From Parvibium lacunae (GTDB lineage Bacteria; Pseudomonadota; Gammaproteobacteria; Burkholderiales; Burkholderiaceae_D): 64,000 bases of DNA. The DNA lies in the NCBI RefSeq assembly GCF_003335215.1, contig NZ_QPGB01000001.1, positions 372,001 through 436,000 of the forward strand. The letters run 5' to 3'. Position 1 is the stretch's first letter, and the number at the start of each line of letters is the position of its first letter. Below are positions 2,213-33,925 of the stretch, piece after piece. A program made the translations under genes and the position numbers. The notes under the pieces were generated by a model that made no database searches, was not told the origin of the DNA, and was given only the letters and a program-made list of their open reading frames with translations.

Positions 2213-3970
2213 ATGAGCAACCTAATCGAAGTTAAAGTCCCTGATATTGGTGATTTCAAAGAAGTGGAAGTCATCGAAGTATTGGTAAAAGCCGGAGACG
2301 CCATCAAAGAAGAACAGTCTTTGATTACGGTGGAGTCCGATAAAGCCAGTATGGAAATCCCTAGCTCAGCTGCTGGCGTCATTAAAGAACTGAAAGTAAA
2401 GCTGGGCGATAAAGTGAGCGAAGGCTCCTTGTTGCTGTTGCTTGAAGCCTCGGGTGCCGCTGCTGTTTCTGCTGCGCCTGCAACTGGAACTCCTGCCGCA
2501 GCGCCTGCTTCTGCTGCCGTACCCGCTCCTGCTGCCGCTAGTTTTGGTGGTGGGGCAGATGAAGAGTTCGATATGCTGGTACTCGGCGCAGGCCCCGGCG
2601 GGTATTCCGCCGCGTTCCGCAGTGCCGACCTTGGCATGAAAACCGTTTTGGTTGAACGTTATAGTACCCTCGGTGGTGTCTGTTTGAACGTCGGTTGCAT
2701 TCCTTCTAAAGCCTTGCTGCACAGTGCCGCCGTCTTGGAAGAAGCCAAGCACATGGCCGATATTGGAATCAGCTTTGGTGAACCGCAAGTGGATATCAAC
2801 AAGCTGCGCGATCACAAAAACAAAGTGATCGGCAAACTCACTGGCGGTCTGGCTGGCATGGCGAAAGCCCGCAAAGTGACAACCGTGCAGGGCGTGGGTA
2901 GCTTCCTTGACCCGCATCATCTCGAAGTGACTCTGGCTGACGGCGGTAAGAAGGTCATCAAGTTCAAGCAAGCGATTATTGCTGCGGGCTCTTCCGTGGT
3001 GAAGTTGCCGTTTGTGCCGGAAGATCCTCGCATTGTCGATTCCACCGGCGCGCTCGAACTGCGCTTTGTGCCACAAAAAATGCTCATCATGGGCGGTGGC
3101 ATTATCGGTCTGGAAATGGGTACGGTGTATTCCGCGCTCGGCGCACGTTTAGATGTGGTTGAGATGATGGATGGCCTAATGCAAGGTGCGGACCGCGATC
3201 TGGTCAAAGTTTGGCAGAAGAAAAACGAAGGCCGTTTTGATCGCATCATGCTCAAAACCAAAACCGTTGCTGTTGAAGCGAAACCCGATGGCATTTACGT
3301 GACCTTTGAAGGCGAAAACGCCCCTGCGGAACCACAGCGTTATGACATGGTGTTGTCAGCGGTAGGTCGTGCGCCGAATGGTAAAAAAATCGGTGCCGAA
3401 AAAGCAGGTGTGATTGTGAATGAGCGTGGCTTTATCCCCGTCGATAAACAACAGCGTACCAACGTGCCCCACATCTTCGCGATTGGCGATATCGTCGGGC
3501 AGCCGATGCTGGCGCACAAAGCCGTACATGAAGCACACGTTGCGGCTGAAGTCGCCCATGGTGAAAAAGTGTACTTCGATGCGCGCACGATTCCCTCTGT
3601 TGCTTACACCGATCCTGAAGTGGCTTGGGTGGGCTTAACCGAAGATGAAGCCAAGAAAAACGGCGTCAAAATCGGTAAAGGCGTGTTCCCGTGGGCGGCT
3701 TCCGGTCGCGCGATTGCGAATGGCCGTGACGAAGGCTTTACCAAATTGATTTTTGATGAAGCGACTGGCCGCGTCTTAGGGGGCGGGATTGTGGGCACAC
3801 ATGCCGGTGATCTGCTCGGCGAAATCTGCTTAGCCGTTGAAATGGGTGCCGATGCTGTTGATGTGGGTAAAACCATTCACGCGCACCCAACGCTGGGTGA
3901 GTCTGTCGGGATGGCCGCTGAAGTGTACAAAGGTGTTTGTACCGATCTGCCCCCACAAAAGAAAAAATAA
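2213..3970 (+). CDS. lpdA: Dihydrolipoamide dehydrogenase with N-terminal lipoyl domain (E3)
   Basis: Flavoprotein that reoxidises the dihydrolipoyl groups of the PDH E2 and passes electrons to NAD+. The ATG at 2213 is preferred over an upstream in-frame start (2168) because AAAGGG sits 8 nt before it and because it begins with [10 protein letters not shown] like AceF; this gives 585 aa. Residues 1-80 are a lipoyl domain (ESDKAS, K44), followed by an Ala/Pro linker. The E3 part shows FAD-binding [10 protein letters not shown], the redox disulfide [14 protein letters not shown]-binding [10 protein letters not shown] and the C-terminal HAHPTLGES dyad. A lipoyl-fused E3 is known in Neisseria and other betaproteobacteria. 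Confidence 0.96.
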
Positions 3971-6267: not shown

Positions 6268-6301
6268 GTGTCATATTTTTGTCATTTATGACAGCTATAG
6301 T
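6268..6301 (+). promoter_or_regulatory. Pho box and -10 upstream of phoU
   Basis: GTGTCAT-ATTT-TTGTCAT (6268-6285) is two 7-bp PhoB half-sites with 4-bp spacing, close to the consensus CTGTCAT-N4-CTGTCAT. Ten bp further is TATAGT (6296-6301), the spacing expected when a Pho box replaces the -35. Confidence 0.75.
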
Positions 6302-6327: not shown

Positions 6328-7026
6328 ATGAACGAGCATACCTTCAAACAATACGATCAAGAGTTAGAGCGTCTACGGAGTACGCTGTTGCAGATGGGCG
6401 GCGCGGTCGAGCAGCAAATCATTAATGCGATTGAAGCGTTTGTTGATGGTGATTTATTGCTTGTTAATCAAGTGATTCGTCGTGAGTCAGAAATCAATAA
6501 ATTTGAAACAGATTTGGATGACGCTTGCACCAACTTTATCGCCAGATTACAGCCGGCAGCTTATGATTTGCGGATGGTGTTGACCGTCGGCAAAATGACA
6601 CGCGATTTAGAGCGCGTCGGCGATGAAGCAGAAAAGATTGCGCGCAATGCCAAACTCATCCACGATGCTGGTAGGACGAATATGCCTCGGGTTGAGATCA
6701 GCTCGATGGGAAATCAAGCCGTTGATATGTTGCGCCAGTCTCTCAACGCCTTTGCTCGTCTTGATGCTCCTGAGGCCGCCGCTGTTATTCGGCAAGATCT
6801 TTCTCTTGATGATCAATTTAGTTCGGTCTTTCGCCAACTGGTCACGTACATGATGGAAGATCCCAGAACTATTTCACGCTCGATTGATTTATTGTTTATT
6901 GCAAAAGCACTAGAGCGTATTGGAGATCACGCCAAAAATATGGCGGAGCAGGTTGTGTACTTGGTTAAGGGCCAAGACATTCGTCATCAGGGTGTTGAGC
7001 AAGCCGAAACTACGGCGCGTATCTGA
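6328..7026 (+). CDS. phoU: Phosphate signalling regulator PhoU
   Basis: Helical-bundle protein that links the Pst transporter to PhoR and represses the Pho response when phosphate is sufficient. The 232-aa protein has the two PhoU repeats, including LTVGKMTRDLERVGDEAEKI and the second-half counterpart FIAKALERIGDHAKNMAEQV; both carry the E(x)xxD metal-binding pattern. GAGG lies 8 nt before the ATG. Unlike E. coli it is not next to pst genes here, but a Pho box stands directly in front. Convergent with the EAL gene downstream. Confidence 0.96.
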   Translation: MNEHTFKQYDQELERLRSTLLQMGGAVEQQIINAIEAFVDGDLLLVNQVIRRESEINKFETDLDDACTNFIARLQPAAYDLRMVLTVGKMTRDLERVGDEAEKIARNAKLIHDAGRTNMPRVEISSMGNQAVDMLRQSLNAFARLDAPEAAAVIRQDLSLDDQFSSVFRQLVTYMMEDPRTISRSIDLLFIAKALERIGDHAKNMAEQVVYLVKGQDIRHQGVEQAETTARI

Positions 7027-25081: not shown

Positions 25082-25627
25082 TCATTGAACCGCGACACCC
25101 CGGCGTTTTTCCATATCCAAGCCAACGGCGGCCAGCACGGCGGGATCAAGTAGCTGTTGCGCATAGGGCAGTACTTCTTGCTCTTCACAGCGAATATGTT
25201 GCGCATACTGCTGGGCAAAGCTATCAATTTTTTTGCGATCGGCCTGCCATGTTCCAGTCATATTTGCCAGCACTAATTTGGCACGAATACTTTGCCAGAG
25301 ATTTTCTAGCGTACGGTGTTCGCTTTGCAGGGTAAGAATCACGCGGCGAACGGCGGTTGGCAATTCGGGATGCTGGAGCAGCGCCGGAAAGAGTGCATTT
25401 TCTTCGTCTGCATGATGCACTGGGCCAGCATGATCAAAATATTGCATAACACGTTGCACAGCTTGGCGGGCTTCATCATCGTAACCACGTTGCTGCACAT
25501 GGTCATCGACTTTACCGAGCAAGCTGGAAAATTTTTTCACGCGTAGGTGACAAGCATCTAGCATTTCAAGCGGTTCATCAAAGCCGGCTTCTAATTTGGC
25601 GAGGCCAGGAAAGCTAACGATATTCAT
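25082..25627 (-). CDS. Hemerythrin-like HHE domain protein
   Basis: A 181-aa cytoplasmic four-helix bundle with diiron-ligand candidates: HADEENALFPALLQHPE, EHRTLENLW and HIRCEEQEVLPYAQ. Such proteins bind oxygen or nitric oxide, or serve in iron/redox protection. AAAGGG lies before the ATG. The nitronate monooxygenase-like gene ends 25 bp upstream on the same strand, so the two are probably cotranscribed. A nitro/nitrosative or redox-stress role is inferred only from that pairing. Confidence 0.85.
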   Translation of the reverse strand: MNIVSFPGLAKLEAGFDEPLEMLDACHLRVKKFSSLLGKVDDHVQQRGYDDEARQAVQRVMQYFDHAGPVHHADEENALFPALLQHPELPTAVRRVILTLQSEHRTLENLWQSIRAKLVLANMTGTWQADRKKIDSFAQQYAQHIRCEEQEVLPYAQQLLDPAVLAAVGLDMEKRRGVAVQ

Positions 25628-28273: not shown

Positions 28274-28771
28274 TTACAGGAAATCCGGGCTGATGACGGT
28301 ACGCAGTACCACTTGAGCGTCGCGCTCACGCTGGCGCGCTGAGAGCCACCATACGGCCCCCTTTTTAATGCTCCAGCGTTGTTCTTCGCCTGCCAATAGG
28401 AGGCTAGCCACATAGCCCAGTGTCGGTTGATGCCCCACAATCACGACCGTGTCATACCGCTGACTCTGCTGCTTATCGCTGATTTGTCCATTCGGCCAGT
28501 CAGCCGCAGCCAATACCGCGCTGACGTCAGCATCAGGGGCAAGGCTTTCATCAATTTTGAAGCTATCAGTTAACGCGCTGGCAGTTTGGCGGGTACGAAT
28601 GGCGGGACTTGCAATCACCAGGCTACTGGGTGGTAAATGTTGCTGTAACCAGGCAGCAACCTTTTGGGCCTGCTTATGACCGCGGTCGGTGAGTTGACGG
28701 CGCAGGTCGGTAGCATAACTTTCACGTAAATTTTCTTCGGCTTCTGCGTGACGCCAGAGGATGAGATTCAT
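28274..28771 (-). CDS. sixA: Phosphohistidine phosphatase SixA
   Basis: Histidine-phosphatase-superfamily enzyme that in E. coli dephosphorylates phosphohistidine proteins (ArcB, and the nitrogen phosphotransferase protein NPr). The start at 28771 (165 aa, MNLILWRHAEAEE) is preferred because it begins at the canonical RHA motif and overlaps the dgkA stop in an ATGA. RHA and VIVGHQPTLGYV supply the two catalytic histidines. It is the last gene of an apparent plcP-glycosyltransferase-dgkA-sixA operon. Why a phosphohistidine phosphatase is placed there is unclear. Confidence 0.9.
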   Translation of the reverse strand: MNLILWRHAEAEENLRESYATDLRRQLTDRGHKQAQKVAAWLQQHLPPSSLVIASPAIRTRQTASALTDSFKIDESLAPDADVSAVLAAADWPNGQISDKQQSQRYDTVVIVGHQPTLGYVASLLLAGEEQRWSIKKGAVWWLSARQRERDAQVVLRTVISPDFL

Positions 28772-29244
28772 AAGCCGTTTTTGAGTAAAGACACACAAAT
28801 CGGGCCTGCCAAACAGCCCCAGGTTAACAAGCAAAGCGCCAGCGCGAGCAGCACCGCAGCACTACCCAGGTCTTTGGCGCGCTTGGAGAGCCGATGACGC
28901 TCTAACGAGATACGATCAATCGCTGCTTCAACAGAAGAATTAAGCAATTCAACAATCAGAACTAAGATGACCGAGCCGATCAACAGCACCCTTTCGACCG
29001 CTGTAACGGGCAACAACAGGGCCACTGGTAGTAACAATATTGCCAGCGTCAGCTCCTGACGAAACGCACTTTCATGGCGAATCGCGAGCATCAAACCATT
29101 GCATGAATGAAACAGGGCATAGTAGGCGCGTTTGATCCCAATATTGCCTTTGAAGGGGCTTTCTGTCCCTGTTTCATCAATCGAGTTGTTGTCAGTCAGC
29201 GCTGCTGGTGGATGGTTGGGTGGGGAAGGGGGAAGCGGTTTCAT
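28768..29244 (-). CDS. dgkA: Diacylglycerol kinase
   Basis: Small integral membrane kinase that phosphorylates diacylglycerol to phosphatidic acid. The 158-aa protein has a polar N-terminal extension (~38 aa), then a DgkA core with three membrane segments and the signature ELLNSSVEAAIDRISLE followed by KDLGSAAV. It overlaps the upstream glycosyltransferase gene and the downstream sixA by 4 nt each. In this operon it would recycle diacylglycerol released by PlcP, competing with the glycosyltransferase for the same substrate. Confidence 0.94.
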   Translation of the reverse strand: MKPLPPSPPNHPPAALTDNNSIDETGTESPFKGNIGIKRAYYALFHSCNGLMLAIRHESAFRQELTLAILLLPVALLLPVTAVERVLLIGSVILVLIVELLNSSVEAAIDRISLERHRLSKRAKDLGSAAVLLALALCLLTWGCLAGPICVSLLKNGL

Positions 29245-30281
29245 GCCGTTGCAGTTTCTGATCGAGGGCTGTTAGCACTCAGTTTAATGGGTTTTAAGTA
29301 AGAAACAAATTGCTCAGTGCAGGCTTGCCATGAGTATTTCTCTGCCTGTTTTCTGGCTTGGCTGCGCTGGATTGTTAAGGCCTCCAAGCAAGCAGTGCGT
29401 AAGTCATCATGCAGTGCGCCAGCACCGCTCTGGCCTATCACATCAATTGGCCCTGTAACAGGATACGCCGCAACGGGTAAGCCACAAGCCATCGCTTCCA
29501 ATAACACTAGGCCAAAAGTGTCGGTGCGACTGGGGAACACAAACACGTCGGCGGATCGGTATAAATCTGCTAAATCGGGCTGTTTCAGTACCCCTGTAAA
29601 GTGAACATCGGGGTATTTTTGACGGATATTTGCGAGTGCTGGGCCTTCTCCTGCAACCCATTTTGACCCGGGGAGATCAAGTGCTAAAAATGCCTCGACA
29701 TTTTTTTCTACAGCCACCCGGCCTACATAGAGAAAGCGGGGACGTTCAGTCTCAATCGCATCCGTGCGGCCTGTAACGCTAAATGTGTCTAAATCTACCC
29801 CACGTGACCAAATCACCGGATTAACAAAGCCATTTTGCCGTAAATCTTCTCGGACCACTTGGGTGGGAACCAAGCAGGCATGGCCGGCATTATGAAACCA
29901 ACTGAAAAAGCGATAAGAAACCCATAAAGGAATACCGAAACGGGCTTTGACATATTCGGGAAAGCGGGTGTGATAAGCGGTTGTGAAGGGAAGATTGTGG
30001 CGCAAGGCGTAAGCGCGAGCGGCTAATCCGAGAGGGCCTTCGGTTGCAATGTGTAAGGCATCTGGCCGTGCGGCGGCGATTCGTGCGGCTACCCTTTTAC
30101 CTGGAAAAATGGAGAGTCGAATTTCAGGATAGGTGGGGCAGGGAATGGTTTTGAATTCAAGGGGAGTAAGTAAGTCGACGTTATGCCCCATCTGAATGAG
30201 TTCATGACGAGTTTGTTTCAACGTCCGTACCACACCGTTGACTTGTGGTTCCCAGGCATCGGTGACGATCAAAATATTCAT
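29241..30281 (-). CDS. GT4-family glycosyltransferase, Agt-like (diacylglycerol glycosylation inferred)
   Basis: A 346-aa GT-B glycosyltransferase. The start at 30281 is chosen because GAAAGG lies 6 nt before it and MNILIVTDAWEPQVNGVVRT is the family N-terminus. Further motifs: YVGRVAVEKN, VAGEGPALANI, FVFPSRTDTFGLVLLEAMACG (EX7E) and PVAAYPVTGPIDVI. It begins 17 bp after the plcP stop. In other bacteria the PlcP partner at this position (Agt) glycosylates diacylglycerol to make phosphorus-free membrane lipids during phosphate starvation. That role is inferred here from context and family, together with the Pho box upstream. Confidence 0.82.
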   Translation of the reverse strand: MNILIVTDAWEPQVNGVVRTLKQTRHELIQMGHNVDLLTPLEFKTIPCPTYPEIRLSIFPGKRVAARIAAARPDALHIATEGPLGLAARAYALRHNLPFTTAYHTRFPEYVKARFGIPLWVSYRFFSWFHNAGHACLVPTQVVREDLRQNGFVNPVIWSRGVDLDTFSVTGRTDAIETERPRFLYVGRVAVEKNVEAFLALDLPGSKWVAGEGPALANIRQKYPDVHFTGVLKQPDLADLYRSADVFVFPSRTDTFGLVLLEAMACGLPVAAYPVTGPIDVIGQSGAGALHDDLRTACLEALTIQRSQARKQAEKYSWQACTEQFVSYLKPIKLSANSPRSETATA

Positions 30282-30298
30282 GGGTATTCCTTTCGGGA

Positions 30299-31207
30299 TC
30301 AAAGAGACGTCGAGGGTGTTGTGCGTGAGTTAAAGAGTGCTTTGCGCAGTGTTGACGAGGTACTGGGGCTGACTGGGGCAGTGAGCGCGGGAATGGTTTT
30401 CAGTTTTTTTGAGCTTTCAGCCAGCGTAGCCCAGGTAATAATCTTCAGCTCACCTTGATGTGTTTCAACCAGTGCGGTAAGGCTTTCAACCCAATCCCCG
30501 TCATTACAGTAAAGCGTGCCATTAATCTCACGGATTTCTGCTTTATGGATATGGCCACAAACGACTCCGTCATAGCCACGTCGCTGCGCTTGCTCTACCA
30601 GGGCTTCTTCAAAGTCAGTAATGAAACTGACTGCATTTTTGACTTTATGCTTTAGGTATTGGGAGAGTGACCAATAAGACAAGCCGCAGCGATGTCGAAT
30701 CCGATTGAACCAGTGATTGAGCGCAAGAATAAAGGTGTATAGGGTGTCGCCTAGGTAAGCAAGCCATTTCGCGTGCTGAATCACCCCATCAAACAAGTCT
30801 CCGTGCGTGACCCACAAGCGCTTGCCATCTAGGCAGGTATGCACCGCTTCATCGCATACTTGAATATCGCCAAAACTGATATTCAGATAATCTCGGGCGA
30901 ACTCATCATGGTTTCCAGGGATATAGAAAACCTTGGTTCCTTTACGGGCTTTGCGTAAAATTTTCTGTACGACGTCGTTGTGTGTTTGTTGCCATGTCCA
31001 ACCTTTACGCAACTGCCAACCATCGATAATATCGCCGACCAAGTAAAGCTTGTCCGATTCGTTGTGTTTCAAAAAATCCAACAAATAACCGGCTTTGCAA
31101 CCTGCTGTACCGAGATGAACATCTGAAATCCAAATCGCACGGTAATGATGTGTAGGGGGATCTTCGCTCGTATTTAGGGTGGCGGGATAGTCGTGGTGGT
31201 CTGTCAT
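30299..31207 (-). CDS. plcP: PlcP-type phospholipase C (LpxH-like metallophosphoesterase)
   Basis: Calcineurin-fold phosphoesterase, 302 aa from the ATG at 31207. An in-frame ATG at 31252 is rejected because it lies inside the Pho box and upstream of the predicted -10. Metal-binding motifs are SDVHLG, GDIIDGW, PGNHDEF, THGD and VCGHIHKAE. Extended segments such as HNDVVQKILRKARKGTKV, YWSLSQYLKHKVKNAVSFI and NDGDWVESLTALVE match my memory of PlcP rather than lipid-A LpxH. PlcP removes phospholipid head groups to give diacylglycerol when phosphate is scarce. Followed by the glycosyltransferase, dgkA and sixA. Confidence 0.82.
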   Translation of the reverse strand: MTDHHDYPATLNTSEDPPTHHYRAIWISDVHLGTAGCKAGYLLDFLKHNESDKLYLVGDIIDGWQLRKGWTWQQTHNDVVQKILRKARKGTKVFYIPGNHDEFARDYLNISFGDIQVCDEAVHTCLDGKRLWVTHGDLFDGVIQHAKWLAYLGDTLYTFILALNHWFNRIRHRCGLSYWSLSQYLKHKVKNAVSFITDFEEALVEQAQRRGYDGVVCGHIHKAEIREINGTLYCNDGDWVESLTALVETHQGELKIITWATLAESSKKLKTIPALTAPVSPSTSSTLRKALFNSRTTPSTSL

Positions 31208-31234
31208 CCTGGTCAGGTAGGAGTAGTTTCCCGT

Positions 31235-31268
31235 ATTACACTGCGGTGACATGTCATCCTCATGACAG
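31235..31268 (-). promoter_or_regulatory. Pho box and -10 for the plcP operon
   Basis: Reading the minus strand, CTGTCAT-GAGG-ATGACAT (31268-31251) matches the Pho box in 12 of 14 half-site positions. After 10 bp comes TGTAAT (31240-31235), a good -10 at the spacing PhoB promoters use. Another perfect CTGTCAT lies exactly 22 bp (two repeat units) upstream at 31290-31284, in phase for a second PhoB dimer. Confidence 0.72.
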
Positions 31269-31303
31269 TTTGTTTAAAGTTAGATGACAGCCACTGTTTG
31301 CAG

Positions 31304-31657
31304 TTAAGCCAGCGAAGTACGAATAAAGCCATTGCGGTTGGGGGTTTGAGCAGATGGGCTTGGGGCATCCAGAATCGTCGCATGTTGCGTTACCCCCATC
31401 ATTTTGAAAAGCATCATGGTCATTTTGTTGGCCCCAAAAATTGCAACCTTCTTGTTCAGATAACGAAGTTCGCGCAGTGTTTTGAGCAGCAATGCAATGC
31501 CCATTGAATTAATTCTGATCACTTGAGAAAAATCAAAAACGACTTCACTGTAGCCACCGACACTGGCAACCGCCTTTTGAAAAAAACTGGCTGACTCAGC
31601 ACTAATCACCCCTTGTAGCAAAATGGTGTAGGGTTTGCTCATCGGAAAGTTTGACAT
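31304..31657 (-). CDS. STAS-domain protein (anti-sigma-factor antagonist type)
   Basis: A 117-aa single STAS domain. The ATG at 31657 has GAGGAG 6-7 nt upstream; an in-frame TTG further up is not favoured. It contains VVFDFSQVIRINSMGIALLLKTL, with the Ser of INSMG at the usual phosphorylation position. A SpoIIE-type phosphatase with its own kinase-like domain is encoded 27 bp upstream on the same strand, so this is probably its partner-switch substrate. The downstream target (sigma factor, cyclase or other) is not in the window. Confidence 0.85.
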   Translation of the reverse strand: MSNFPMSKPYTILLQGVISAESASFFQKAVASVGGYSEVVFDFSQVIRINSMGIALLLKTLRELRYLNKKVAIFGANKMTMMLFKMMGVTQHATILDAPSPSAQTPNRNGFIRTSLA

Positions 31658-31684
31658 GATCAACTCCTCATCAAAATAAGATCA

Positions 31685-33925
31685 TCAATTAGATGCCTGA
31701 TAGGTAATTTGGACGCTTTTTTCATGCACGTCATCAGCGATGCCATTTGCATGAAAAAAGACTGTAATACTGGTGCGTTTGCCTGGCGCTATATGAATAT
31801 GCAAGTAATCAGCAAGGCGCCACACCATATATAAACCTGCTCCGCCCATGCCATTCTCACTGGCATGAGATTGCACCCCAACGCCATAGAGATTGCGTTG
31901 CAGCCGTTCCAGTAATTTGTCGCCATCAAAGTTGCCGCCGTCATCGCTGATTTGAATCGCAATTAAATGGGGCTCGCAGCCAAGCGCTAGGCTGATGCCT
32001 TGAGGGTCTTGAAAGACTAGGTCTTGCCCTTTGGCATAAGGTTGGGCATGTCGCTTGCTGCTGGCCATGAAAGCGTTCTCTAACAGCTCATCTGCGATCA
32101 AGGCTGCAATTTCGATGATTTCAGGGCGAGTCTGCGCCAACTGCGCCCGCTCCATAGCAGCAATCAGTTGCTGAATGGTAATTTCCTTATCGGCTGTCTG
32201 CGATAAATAAAATCTGATGGGTTGGCAGAGTTGATGCAAATTAATAAACTCGTCACCAATATGTCCCAGCAGCAGGGTTGGCCAGCCTACATAATCAATA
32301 ATCGGATCCGCTTCCTGAATCAGTCGTAAAACACCAAGATTACGCAGTAGCGAAATTTGCTTACTTAAACTTCTTGCGGTGAGCAGTATGGGTGATTGTC
32401 CTGGTTTAAACGCTACTAACTCGCGGAAATTGGCATTAAAGAAATGCTGTGTGAGTATCGTGGGTGACGGCAAATCATGCATTGCGATATGCTGCCTCGA
32501 TAGCCGTTGGAAGGGTAGTTTCGTCTGTTGAAGCTGTTGCTCTATCGTGGTGGTGCGAAGTTCAAAATCAGCCACCCCGATAGAGATTGATTGACGCTGT
32601 TGATATTGCGCTGGCGCGGCAACTTCGATGCAGAGTAAAGTGACATCATCATCAATATCAGGTTTGTGGGTTTGGAAATGCTGGCTGGCATAGCTTGCAA
32701 CACCTTTTACCAAGTTGGTAGAGGTTTGCTTGGCGAAGTTGGTTAAATGCGATTCAAGCCGCTCATAGCCAAATTCTTCTTCCTGAGTATTGGTATTTTC
32801 AATCAGGCCATCTGTATAAAAGAAGAGTTTATCGCCTGCTTGTAACCGCACAGAATGTATTTGATACGTTGGCTGATTATCCAAACCCAGTGGGGCCTCT
32901 CCTTCAGTATCAAGCATGAGTGGGGTGTTATCGTTATTGCGTAGCCAGTATGGAAAATTATGTCCCGCATTGGCATACTCAAAGACAAGGTCTTGAGTAT
33001 TAATGACGCCATAGCAAAACGTCATCAGCAATTGCCGCATGCCGGTGGCTAAGATTGCTTGATTGAGCTGTTGGAGAGTTACAGCAGGGTTCAAGCGCGT
33101 TTCTGTTGGTAGTGCATGCAAAGCGCCTTTAGCCGCACTGACTAACATGCCAGCGGGAACGCCATGGCCCGAGGCATCGCCGATTGCAATCCCAATATGG
33201 TTCTGGTCTAGCACAAAATAGTCAAAAAAATCACCGCCGACTTCGGTTGACGTAAAGACCTGGCTGGCGATCTCGATGTTATCTAAGCGCGCTTGTTGCG
33301 CAGGTAATAGCTCGGCTTGCAAGGCGGCAGTCTTAGAAACTTCGCTATGTAAGCGTTGGCTCATCTCAGCCAGTTGCTGGTAGAGGGCGGTCTGGTTACG
33401 AGAGATGGCTAAAATCAGCGCAGGAATCGCGATCTGACCGATTAACTTGGTGTCCCTAAAAATAGGCACAGCATCTAGCTTGAGTCTGGGGTCATGCGCT
33501 AGCAGCTTTTCTAGTGCGGTCGTGATTGTCTCGCTGGCTTGGAGTGAAAAATAGCCTGTTTCTGCGATATCACTCAGCAATTTTCGCTCATTCAATTCGC
33601 GCTGATAAGGCTCCGACATTCTCTTTAAGAACTGACGGCAATAGATCAGCCCCGTCACTTGCTCGTCAGCTGCAATCGCGACACACTGGGTGTCTGGATG
33701 TTGAATTAACTTATCGTGTAGGGCAAGTACGCGTGTTGAGCCAGGCAGCAAGGCGATTGGCTTAACAAGAAAATCGATCGTATTGTTGTTGACTGGCTCA
33801 ACCTCGTCCAATGTGTGTGAGCGCTTTGTCAGGGCTTCCTTGCCTGAATCGATGCGCGGCGGCGTGGCGCCAATCGCAGCATCATACGGAGGGGTAATAC
33901 GGAGCGTGTCAGGAATGGCAGACAT
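31685..33925 (-). CDS. SpoIIE-type phosphatase with CBS-like N-terminus and C-terminal HATPase domain
   Basis: A 746-aa regulatory protein. The N-terminal ~180 residues resemble a CBS-type sensor pair (for example LDAVPIFRDTKLIGQIAI). A short helical linker leads to a PP2C/SpoIIE phosphatase with EVGGDFFDYF (228-237) and GDASGHGVPAGM (249-260), then FEYANAGHNFPY and FFYTDGLIE. A region of unclear nature precedes a C-terminal GHKL ATPase-like domain with ADELLENAF, ISDDGGNFDG and GMGGAGLYMVWRLADY. Phosphatase and anti-sigma-like kinase are thus joined in one chain, with the STAS protein encoded next. No transmembrane segments are seen. Confidence 0.85.
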   Translation of the reverse strand: MSAIPDTLRITPPYDAAIGATPPRIDSGKEALTKRSHTLDEVEPVNNNTIDFLVKPIALLPGSTRVLALHDKLIQHPDTQCVAIAADEQVTGLIYCRQFLKRMSEPYQRELNERKLLSDIAETGYFSLQASETITTALEKLLAHDPRLKLDAVPIFRDTKLIGQIAIPALILAISRNQTALYQQLAEMSQRLHSEVSKTAALQAELLPAQQARLDNIEIASQVFTSTEVGGDFFDYFVLDQNHIGIAIGDASGHGVPAGMLVSAAKGALHALPTETRLNPAVTLQQLNQAILATGMRQLLMTFCYGVINTQDLVFEYANAGHNFPYWLRNNDNTPLMLDTEGEAPLGLDNQPTYQIHSVRLQAGDKLFFYTDGLIENTNTQEEEFGYERLESHLTNFAKQTSTNLVKGVASYASQHFQTHKPDIDDDVTLLCIEVAAPAQYQQRQSISIGVADFELRTTTIEQQLQQTKLPFQRLSRQHIAMHDLPSPTILTQHFFNANFRELVAFKPGQSPILLTARSLSKQISLLRNLGVLRLIQEADPIIDYVGWPTLLLGHIGDEFINLHQLCQPIRFYLSQTADKEITIQQLIAAMERAQLAQTRPEIIEIAALIADELLENAFMASSKRHAQPYAKGQDLVFQDPQGISLALGCEPHLIAIQISDDGGNFDGDKLLERLQRNLYGVGVQSHASENGMGGAGLYMVWRLADYLHIHIAPGKRTSITVFFHANGIADDVHEKSVQITYQASN

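Follow-up and report, generated by a model that had tools for sequence, protein, structure and literature searches.

Organization of the plcP-agt-dgkA-sixA locus

We analyzed a 64,000-nt stretch of the Parvibium lacunae genome (assembly GCF_003335215.1, contig NZ_QPGB01000001.1, positions 372,001 to 436,000), hereafter the window, to which all unqualified coordinates refer. Four closely packed genes on its minus strand encode a PlcP-type phosphoesterase, a glycosyltransferase, a diacylglycerol kinase and a SixA-like phosphatase, and are preceded by a predicted Pho box, the binding site of the phosphate regulator PhoB. An original prediction, made from the sequence alone, had placed plcP, agt, dgkA and sixA in this order with a 17-bp gap followed by two 4-nt overlaps, an arrangement that proved exact to the base. 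The features of the locus are as follows:

30299-31207, minus strand: plcP, PlcP-type phospholipase C (predicted activity), 302 aa from the second ATG, or 317 aa if translated from the ATG at 31252
29241-30281, minus strand: agt, GT4 glycosyltransferase, 346 aa, after a 17-bp gap
28768-29244, minus strand: dgkA, integral-membrane diacylglycerol kinase, 158 aa, ATGA overlap with agt
28274-28771, minus strand: sixA-like histidine phosphatase (branch 1), 165 aa, ATGA overlap with dgkA
31251-31290, minus strand: predicted Pho box of four 11-bp-spaced units, CTGTCAT, CTTTAAA, CTGTCAT and ATGACAT, the first three with 18/21 matches
31235-31240, minus strand: -10-like hexamer TGTAAT, 10 bp after the last Pho unit, assigned from the sequence

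The second ATG is probably the start of PlcP, because the first (31252) overlaps the last Pho unit; in an alignment of 15 sequences, the first invariant residue of the protein lies 22 residues further on.

The phosphoesterase is a PlcP distinct from LpxH

The product of plcP belongs to the metallophosphoesterase families PF00149 and PF12850 of Pfam, and residues D44, H46, D74, N114, H150, H234 and H236 (317-aa numbering), which we take to be the metal-site residues of metallophosphoesterases, are invariant in the 15 aligned sequences. The same genome encodes a separate LpxH at C1:341905 that scores 271.6 bits against the LpxH model NF003743, versus 48.2 bits for the window protein in the genome search and 47.8 bits for the protein alone (cut-off 134). 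Phylogenetic analysis of 11 PlcP and 11 LpxH sequences, including the genome's own LpxH, split the two groups at 100/100 and placed the window protein with PlcP. Identity reaches 55.6% over 234 residues with a Pseudomonas aeruginosa PA3219-type PlcP and 22% with Escherichia coli LpxH. The bit scores and the split of the tree rule out an LpxH identity for the window protein; it is a PlcP, as had been proposed, with predicted phospholipase activity, and the broader proposal of PlcP-Agt remodeling under a PhoB box, with DgkA acting on diacylglycerol (DAG), comes through this comparison intact.

The agt product is a GT4-family protein (Pfam PF13439 and PF00534) that shares 47% identity over 342 aa with the P. 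aeruginosa PA3218-type glycosyltransferase, and it is best described as an Agt-type glycolipid glycosyltransferase, with DAG and UDP-glucose or UDP-glucuronate as candidate substrates. The P. aeruginosa references for both enzymes come from a plcP-glycosyltransferase gene pair on a plasmid record (L179, NZ_CP137508.1). Unlike the present operon, this pair is followed by neither dgkA nor sixA within the 5.8 kb seen; the annotated gene that comes next is convergent and encodes a cyclase-domain protein, and we take cyaB to be PA3217. We infer that the pair is PA3219-PA3218 from the overlap with the glycosyltransferase gene, from the cyclase-domain neighbor and from the description of PA3219-PA3218 as an apparent operon conserved throughout the 770 P. 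aeruginosa genomes examined (PMC8528852).

Several observations on PlcP homologs arose alongside these comparisons. A plcP homolog occurs on three P. aeruginosa plasmid records, and in the one opened (L179) it adjoins its glycosyltransferase gene; it may be a chromosomal stretch carried on a plasmid or an assembly effect. In genome G048, plcP is found in two open reading frames (L066, 8879-9718), a possible frameshift or pseudogene, and a second copy is present in the same genome (L067). A metagenome-assembled genome titled Klebsiella pneumoniae (L091, CAMDGF010000010.1) carries a betaproteobacterial-type PlcP locus whose PlcP core is identical to that of G036, a genome from the same order as P. 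lacunae; the title looks wrong.

A predicted Pho box upstream of plcP

The full upstream layout reads CTGTCAT-N4-CTTTAAA-N4-CTGTCAT-N4-ATGACAT-N10-TGTAAT in an 11-bp register, with the plcP ATG 27 bp after TGTAAT. Three elements had been singled out beforehand (CTGTCAT-N4-ATGACAT, TGTAAT at 10 bp and a further CTGTCAT 22 bp upstream in phase), and all were found as described. The sequence CTGTCATN4ATGACAT has a single mismatch-free occurrence in the 2.63-Mb genome. Pairs of CTGTCAT 22 bp apart with at most 2 mismatches occur three times in the window against 0.28 expected, a count reached in none of 100 shuffles, and the only exact pair at this spacing is the plcP site. A looser two-unit pattern (at most 3 mismatches) is less telling, with 11 occurrences in the window against 5.0 expected and 2 of 100 shuffles as high.

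Genome-wide, the two-unit consensus gave 188 matches at up to 3 mismatches, versus 102 for the pattern read backward. Seventeen matches have at most 2 mismatches, and in six of these the gene that begins 33-102 bp further on is plcP, phoU, ppk, pstS or an olsB-like gene. One of them is the second match of the window:

6268-6285, plus strand: Pho-box match 42 bp before phoU (6328-7026)

The olsB-like gene has three consecutive box units upstream, one of them at 3 mismatches, and a tandem box pair at 3 mismatches marks the start of a second pstS. For 11 of the 17 matches the surroundings were examined, with gene starts taken mechanically; the other six comprise five on contig C2 and one on C3. 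Of the remaining five examined sites, one lies before parE, one before a metallophosphoesterase gene, one inside a thiol peroxidase gene and one inside a window gene (25082-25627), and one has no same-strand gene start. The first two (L151, local position 3920, and L152, local position 3555, at 0 and 1 mismatch) precede the parE gene (704 bits, cut-off 723) and the metallophosphoesterase gene, which by eye is followed by a kinase-like open reading frame; these matches are due to chance or mark unusual Pho genes.

The genome encodes PhoB (362 bits, cut-off 296). PhoB promoters often lack a good -35 element, and a sigma-70 promoter scan listed no promoter at this site upstream of plcP. Scanning the upstream regions of plcP in the 115 loci described below (4 of them duplicates) revealed box matches of at least 12/14 in 17 regions, compared with none in a reversed control, and three-unit matches of at least 16/21 in 13, again with none in the control; at a looser limit of 11/14, the counts were 32 and 12. 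The P. lacunae region, with a three-unit score of 18/21 (15/21 when reversed), ties with L106 for the best of the 115. The box thus recurs upstream of plcP, although most loci do not show it in this crude scan, and control of the P. lacunae operon by phosphate through PhoB is well predicted from these sequence patterns.

Recurrent linkage of dgkA to plcP

Matches to plcP at strong E-values were present in 34 of 60 genomes, including that of P. lacunae, and 34 regions were retrieved from 32 of the 33 other plcP genomes (G021, with a match truncated at the end of its contig, was left out). A broader scan over one genome per species (84,980 species) retained the best 80 loci of at least 571 confirmed relatives. 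Among these best 80, the order plcP-agt-dgkA is found in Burkholderia, Paraburkholderia, Caballeronia, Cupriavidus, Ralstonia, Polynucleobacter and several metagenome-assembled genomes. Cupriavidus necator A5-1 (L083) is one of the strains that carry the operon. The 115 PlcP loci reduce to 111 distinct ones once the duplicates are removed, and dgkA was considered linked when it lay no more than 4.5 kb downstream of plcP in the same orientation. By this definition it is linked in 31 of the 111 (window included) and not in 64, with 16 loci cut too short; the sample is weighted toward near relatives, so 31/111 is not a frequency.

The synteny survey that had been suggested identified five related genera (G008, G010, G020, G034 and G035) sharing the complete four-gene order. 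Beyond these, G056 presents plcP-agt-dgkA, and G012 presents plcP-dgkA-agt with a 0-bp gap between plcP and dgkA. A PlcP-DgkA fusion was considered for the latter (L068) and rejected on its translation, which shows a stop and an adjacent ATG. Spacing between agt and dgkA is often tight: in 18 of the 31 linked loci, dgkA could start no more than 60 bp from the agt stop codon, and four of these show an exact 4-nt overlap (starts predicted).

Mapped onto a quick tree of the 111 PlcP sequences, supported by SH-like approximate likelihood-ratio values (SH-aLRT) only, the linkage label changes 7-8 times, at least 3 of these changes being forced by well-supported branches, and none of 500 shuffles gave as low a number. 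The alternative gene order in G012 and the distant rows L109/L129 and L050/L124 make repeated gain of the linkage likely in our view. The original prediction had held the tight linkage to dgkA to be new; the linkage is real, and its novelty does not stand, as it is common in the Burkholderiaceae and occurs in some other lineages, and a similar gene set had already been listed for a marine alphaproteobacterial phosphate island in a 2023 paper (PMC10734472).

PlcP as the likely source of diacylglycerol for DgkA

The dgkA product matches DAGK_prokar (PF01219) at 111.2 bits (cut-off 22.3), aligns along E. coli DgkA (3ze3; E 9e-27) and is encoded by the only DAGK_prokar gene of the genome. E. coli DgkA uses DAG from OpgB/MdoB and EptA, which are PF00884 proteins. 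Neither PF00884 nor the phospholipase C family PF04185 has a match in the P. lacunae genome, in a search that left aside PAP2 phosphatases and DAGK_cat kinases, a restriction that tells against the argument that follows. With a single dgkA and no OpgB/EptA-type protein, PlcP is most likely, judging from gene content, the DAG source of DgkA in this organism.

Among the 60 genomes, dgkA is found in 48 and PF00884 over cut-off in 46. None of the six genomes comprising P. lacunae and its five four-gene-order relatives has PF00884 over cut-off (G010 has one match below it), and 39 of the 42 other dgkA-bearing genomes do. Elsewhere, dgkA copies and PF00884 were checked in 14 genomes from the 23 linked loci of the best-80 scan. 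The plcP-linked dgkA is the sole dgkA in 11 of these 14, which hold 14 of the 23 loci (positions compared by eye). A general rule that dgkA sits beside plcP because EptA and OpgB are missing was tried and rejected, since 13 of the 14 linked genomes elsewhere, as well as G012, G056 and G033, have PF00884.

sixA and the wider phosphate block

The sixA product matches His_Phos_1 (PF00300) and is borderline for the SixA model TIGR00249 (73.6 bits, cut-off 74.5); it matches SixA entries of the PDB at E 1.9e-6 and 2.5e-4. In the five four-gene-order relatives, plcP-agt-dgkA-sixA forms one block with an olsB-like gene, a convergent ppx, and ppk. The PlcP trees put these genomes near P. lacunae, although in the larger tree they are not united with it by any well-supported branch. 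In P. lacunae itself, olsB-ppx-ppk is located about 110 kb from the plcP operon (L150, G000:C1:511500-521000), so the block appears to be split.

The olsB-like gene at L150 encodes an N-acyltransferase (NF052554 at 159 bits, cut-off 350; PF13444) and stands behind its three tandem Pho-box units, with ppx and ppk next to it. Its upstream box scores 18/21 (16 when reversed), and those of the five relatives score 13-16, against 11-13 reversed.

Within the stretches fetched around the 110 other PlcP loci, an olsB-like gene is found near plcP in 35, sixA in 26, ppk in 26, ppx in 19, pstS in 11 and phoU in 7; any of the six is present in 44, and sixA, olsB and ppk occur together in 20. Only 5 of the 26 loci with sixA nearby have a linked dgkA, which indicates that the partner of sixA is the phosphate and polyphosphate block rather than dgkA. 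The predicted linkage of sixA to the operon is real, but sixA travels with the wider olsB/ppx/ppk/pst block.

Genes upstream of the operon

Directly upstream, at 31304-33925 on the minus strand, lie genes for a STAS protein (31304-31663) and a 746-aa SpoIIE phosphatase (PF07228, with a HATPase match just under cut-off). No minus-strand terminator was found between the STAS gene and plcP, so read-through from the STAS side is possible. The pair was considered as part of the system and rejected: it has no BLAST match in the stretches from 34 relatives, though some of these start close to plcP.

Discussion

Together, these data probably describe a PhoB-induced membrane-remodeling operon in which DgkA would serve as an overflow and return valve for DAG and SixA would be a passenger of the phosphate block. 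On exhaustion of phosphate, phosphorylated PhoB would bind the 11-bp-spaced repeats at 31251-31290. PlcP would then split phospholipids into DAG and a phosphorylated head group, and Agt would convert DAG into a phosphate-free glycolipid of the monoglycosyldiacylglycerol (MGDG) type, the glucuronic acid diacylglycerol (GADG) type, or both. DgkA, whose start overlaps the agt stop, would phosphorylate unglycosylated DAG to phosphatidic acid, keeping DAG low and allowing phospholipid synthesis to resume. We regard DgkA as a putative partner of PlcP in function, the case being clearest in this genome; it would provide the overflow and return path for DAG. SixA travels with olsB-like, ppx and ppk genes, and its probable target would be a phosphohistidine protein involved in controlling phosphate or polyphosphate.

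Several observations weigh against this interpretation. The box alone is not specific, since the closest matches of the genome (0-1 mismatch) precede parE and the metallophosphoesterase gene or fall inside the thiol peroxidase gene, and 98 of the 115 plcP upstream regions fall under 12/14. The 64 loci without a linked dgkA imply that PlcP-Agt works without it elsewhere, and the tree does not tell gains from losses, the three forced changes being compatible with one gain and two losses. The absence of another DAG source is a local argument only, given that the 13 linked genomes with PF00884 outside the window's group carry it over cut-off, some weakly, and that G033, which by path is closest to P. 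lacunae in the PlcP tree, encodes three PF00884 proteins but gave no match for dgkA (its contig is cut inside agt). Where dgkA is unlinked, it has conserved surroundings of a different kind: of 20 such loci (L157-L176), 14 have an IclR-type regulator gene within 2.5 kb and 11 a D-Ala-D-Ala endopeptidase-type gene within 3.4 kb (each neighbor type named from a single member, in L170), which suggests that dgkA is not tied to phosphate in general. Finally, rephosphorylation of DAG costs ATP and puts phosphorus back into lipid, the opposite of the operon's aim.

A first alternative, which we consider unlikely, is that dgkA and sixA are housekeeping passengers, with DgkA recycling envelope DAG from OpgB and EptA or phosphorylating undecaprenol, and that their co-transcription with plcP-agt is incidental. 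As the sole dgkA of the genome, the gene must serve any housekeeping need. Most dgkA-bearing genomes outside the window's group have PF00884 proteins, dgkA lies 185 bp from a PF00884 gene in G043 and about 1.2 kb from one in G011, and the recurring neighbor of unlinked dgkA is the IclR-type gene and not a phosphate gene. Set against this are the lack of PF00884 in P. lacunae and, over cut-off, in its five relatives, the occurrence of the plcP-dgkA linkage in separated branches and in two gene orders, and the alignment of the protein with E. coli DgkA.

A second alternative, which appears distinctly improbable, envisages PlcP and DgkA as a head-group exchange cycle (phosphatidylethanolamine or phosphatidylglycerol to DAG to phosphatidic acid) that retailors phospholipids, the glycolipid being a side product. 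In its favor, DgkA aside, no known step that feeds DAG back into phospholipid synthesis was found here, and G012 has plcP and dgkA side by side; however, the other linked loci, as drawn, have agt between the two, and the Pho box predicts expression under phosphate scarcity. That the phosphoesterase is LpxH or another lipid A enzyme and the cluster concerns lipopolysaccharide can be virtually dismissed: the homolog is called UDP-2,3-diacylglucosamine diphosphatase in 13 of 15 listed plasmid records (31 matched; the other two unannotated there), and NCBIfam LpxH models match the window protein weakly, but the true LpxH lies elsewhere, the box is of the phosphate type and the neighbors in relatives are phosphate genes.

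The remodeling interpretation builds on known systems. As in P. aeruginosa PA3219-PA3218, where a Pho box is reported upstream and the PAO1 PA3218 counterpart makes MGDG (PMC8528852), agt follows plcP at once. The marine heterotrophs of Sebastian et al. (PMC4796936) likewise have plcP-agt with Pho boxes, as type 2 of six arrangements; they differ in that the section of that paper on plcP arrangements names no dgkA, sixA, olsB or ppk, and "diacylglycerol kinase" is absent from its main text. PlcP-Agt and its Pho box were hence already described, as was a phosphate-regulated olsB: in Acinetobacter baumannii, olsB is reported to have a Pho box in front of it, and work with a phoR deletion showed aminolipids when phosphate is low (PMC11828411). 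The main text of that study does not mention plcP; here, the olsB-like gene lies far from plcP in P. lacunae, yet within the plcP block in related genera.

The closest likeness is the island fGIp-C/D/E of the HIMB59 alphaproteobacterium, said to carry pst, PhoBR, ppk, ppx, SixA, "LpxH", a glycosyltransferase (RfaG) and a diacylglycerol kinase (PMC10734472), which resembles the operon in the gene content named in text and legend, a comparison by description and not by gene order. Its authors assign LpxH to lipid A synthesis and see no direct phosphate function in the glycosyltransferase or the kinase. By analogy, we suggest that this "LpxH" may be a PlcP. The island was the only similar gene set in the portions of the literature examined, and a search reaching few subscription journals found plcP and dgkA together only in PMC13086504, where the two words occur in a gene table and in separate passages. 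What is new here is the recurrent, often sole placement of dgkA at plcP-agt and the proposed re-reading of "LpxH" islands.

A more far-reaching version may be put forward tentatively and with considerable doubt: in the window's group, and perhaps in all Burkholderiaceae, the sole DgkA would have been captured by the phosphate-starvation regulon, with PlcP rather than OpgB or EptA as the main DAG source and DgkA setting the split of DAG between glycolipid and phospholipid, while SixA would dephosphorylate a histidine protein of the phosphate system (such as polyphosphate kinase 1 or PhoR) and so link remodeling with polyphosphate storage.

The operon appears to represent a common Burkholderiaceae form of PlcP-Agt remodeling, with dgkA and sometimes sixA, joined in relatives by olsB, ppx and ppk. 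Known from marine and Pseudomonas species, the PlcP-Agt pair is now followed, together with a downstream dgkA, in Burkholderia, Paraburkholderia, Caballeronia, Cupriavidus, Ralstonia and Polynucleobacter. The LpxH names given to most annotated homologs on plasmid records hide the PlcP pathway, and a lipid reading can be offered for the HIMB59 phosphate island, whose glycosyltransferase, diacylglycerol kinase and "LpxH" had none. If dgkA truly belongs to the pathway, the fate of PlcP-released DAG would be testable by removing one gene, and its placement may explain where the released lipid backbone goes.

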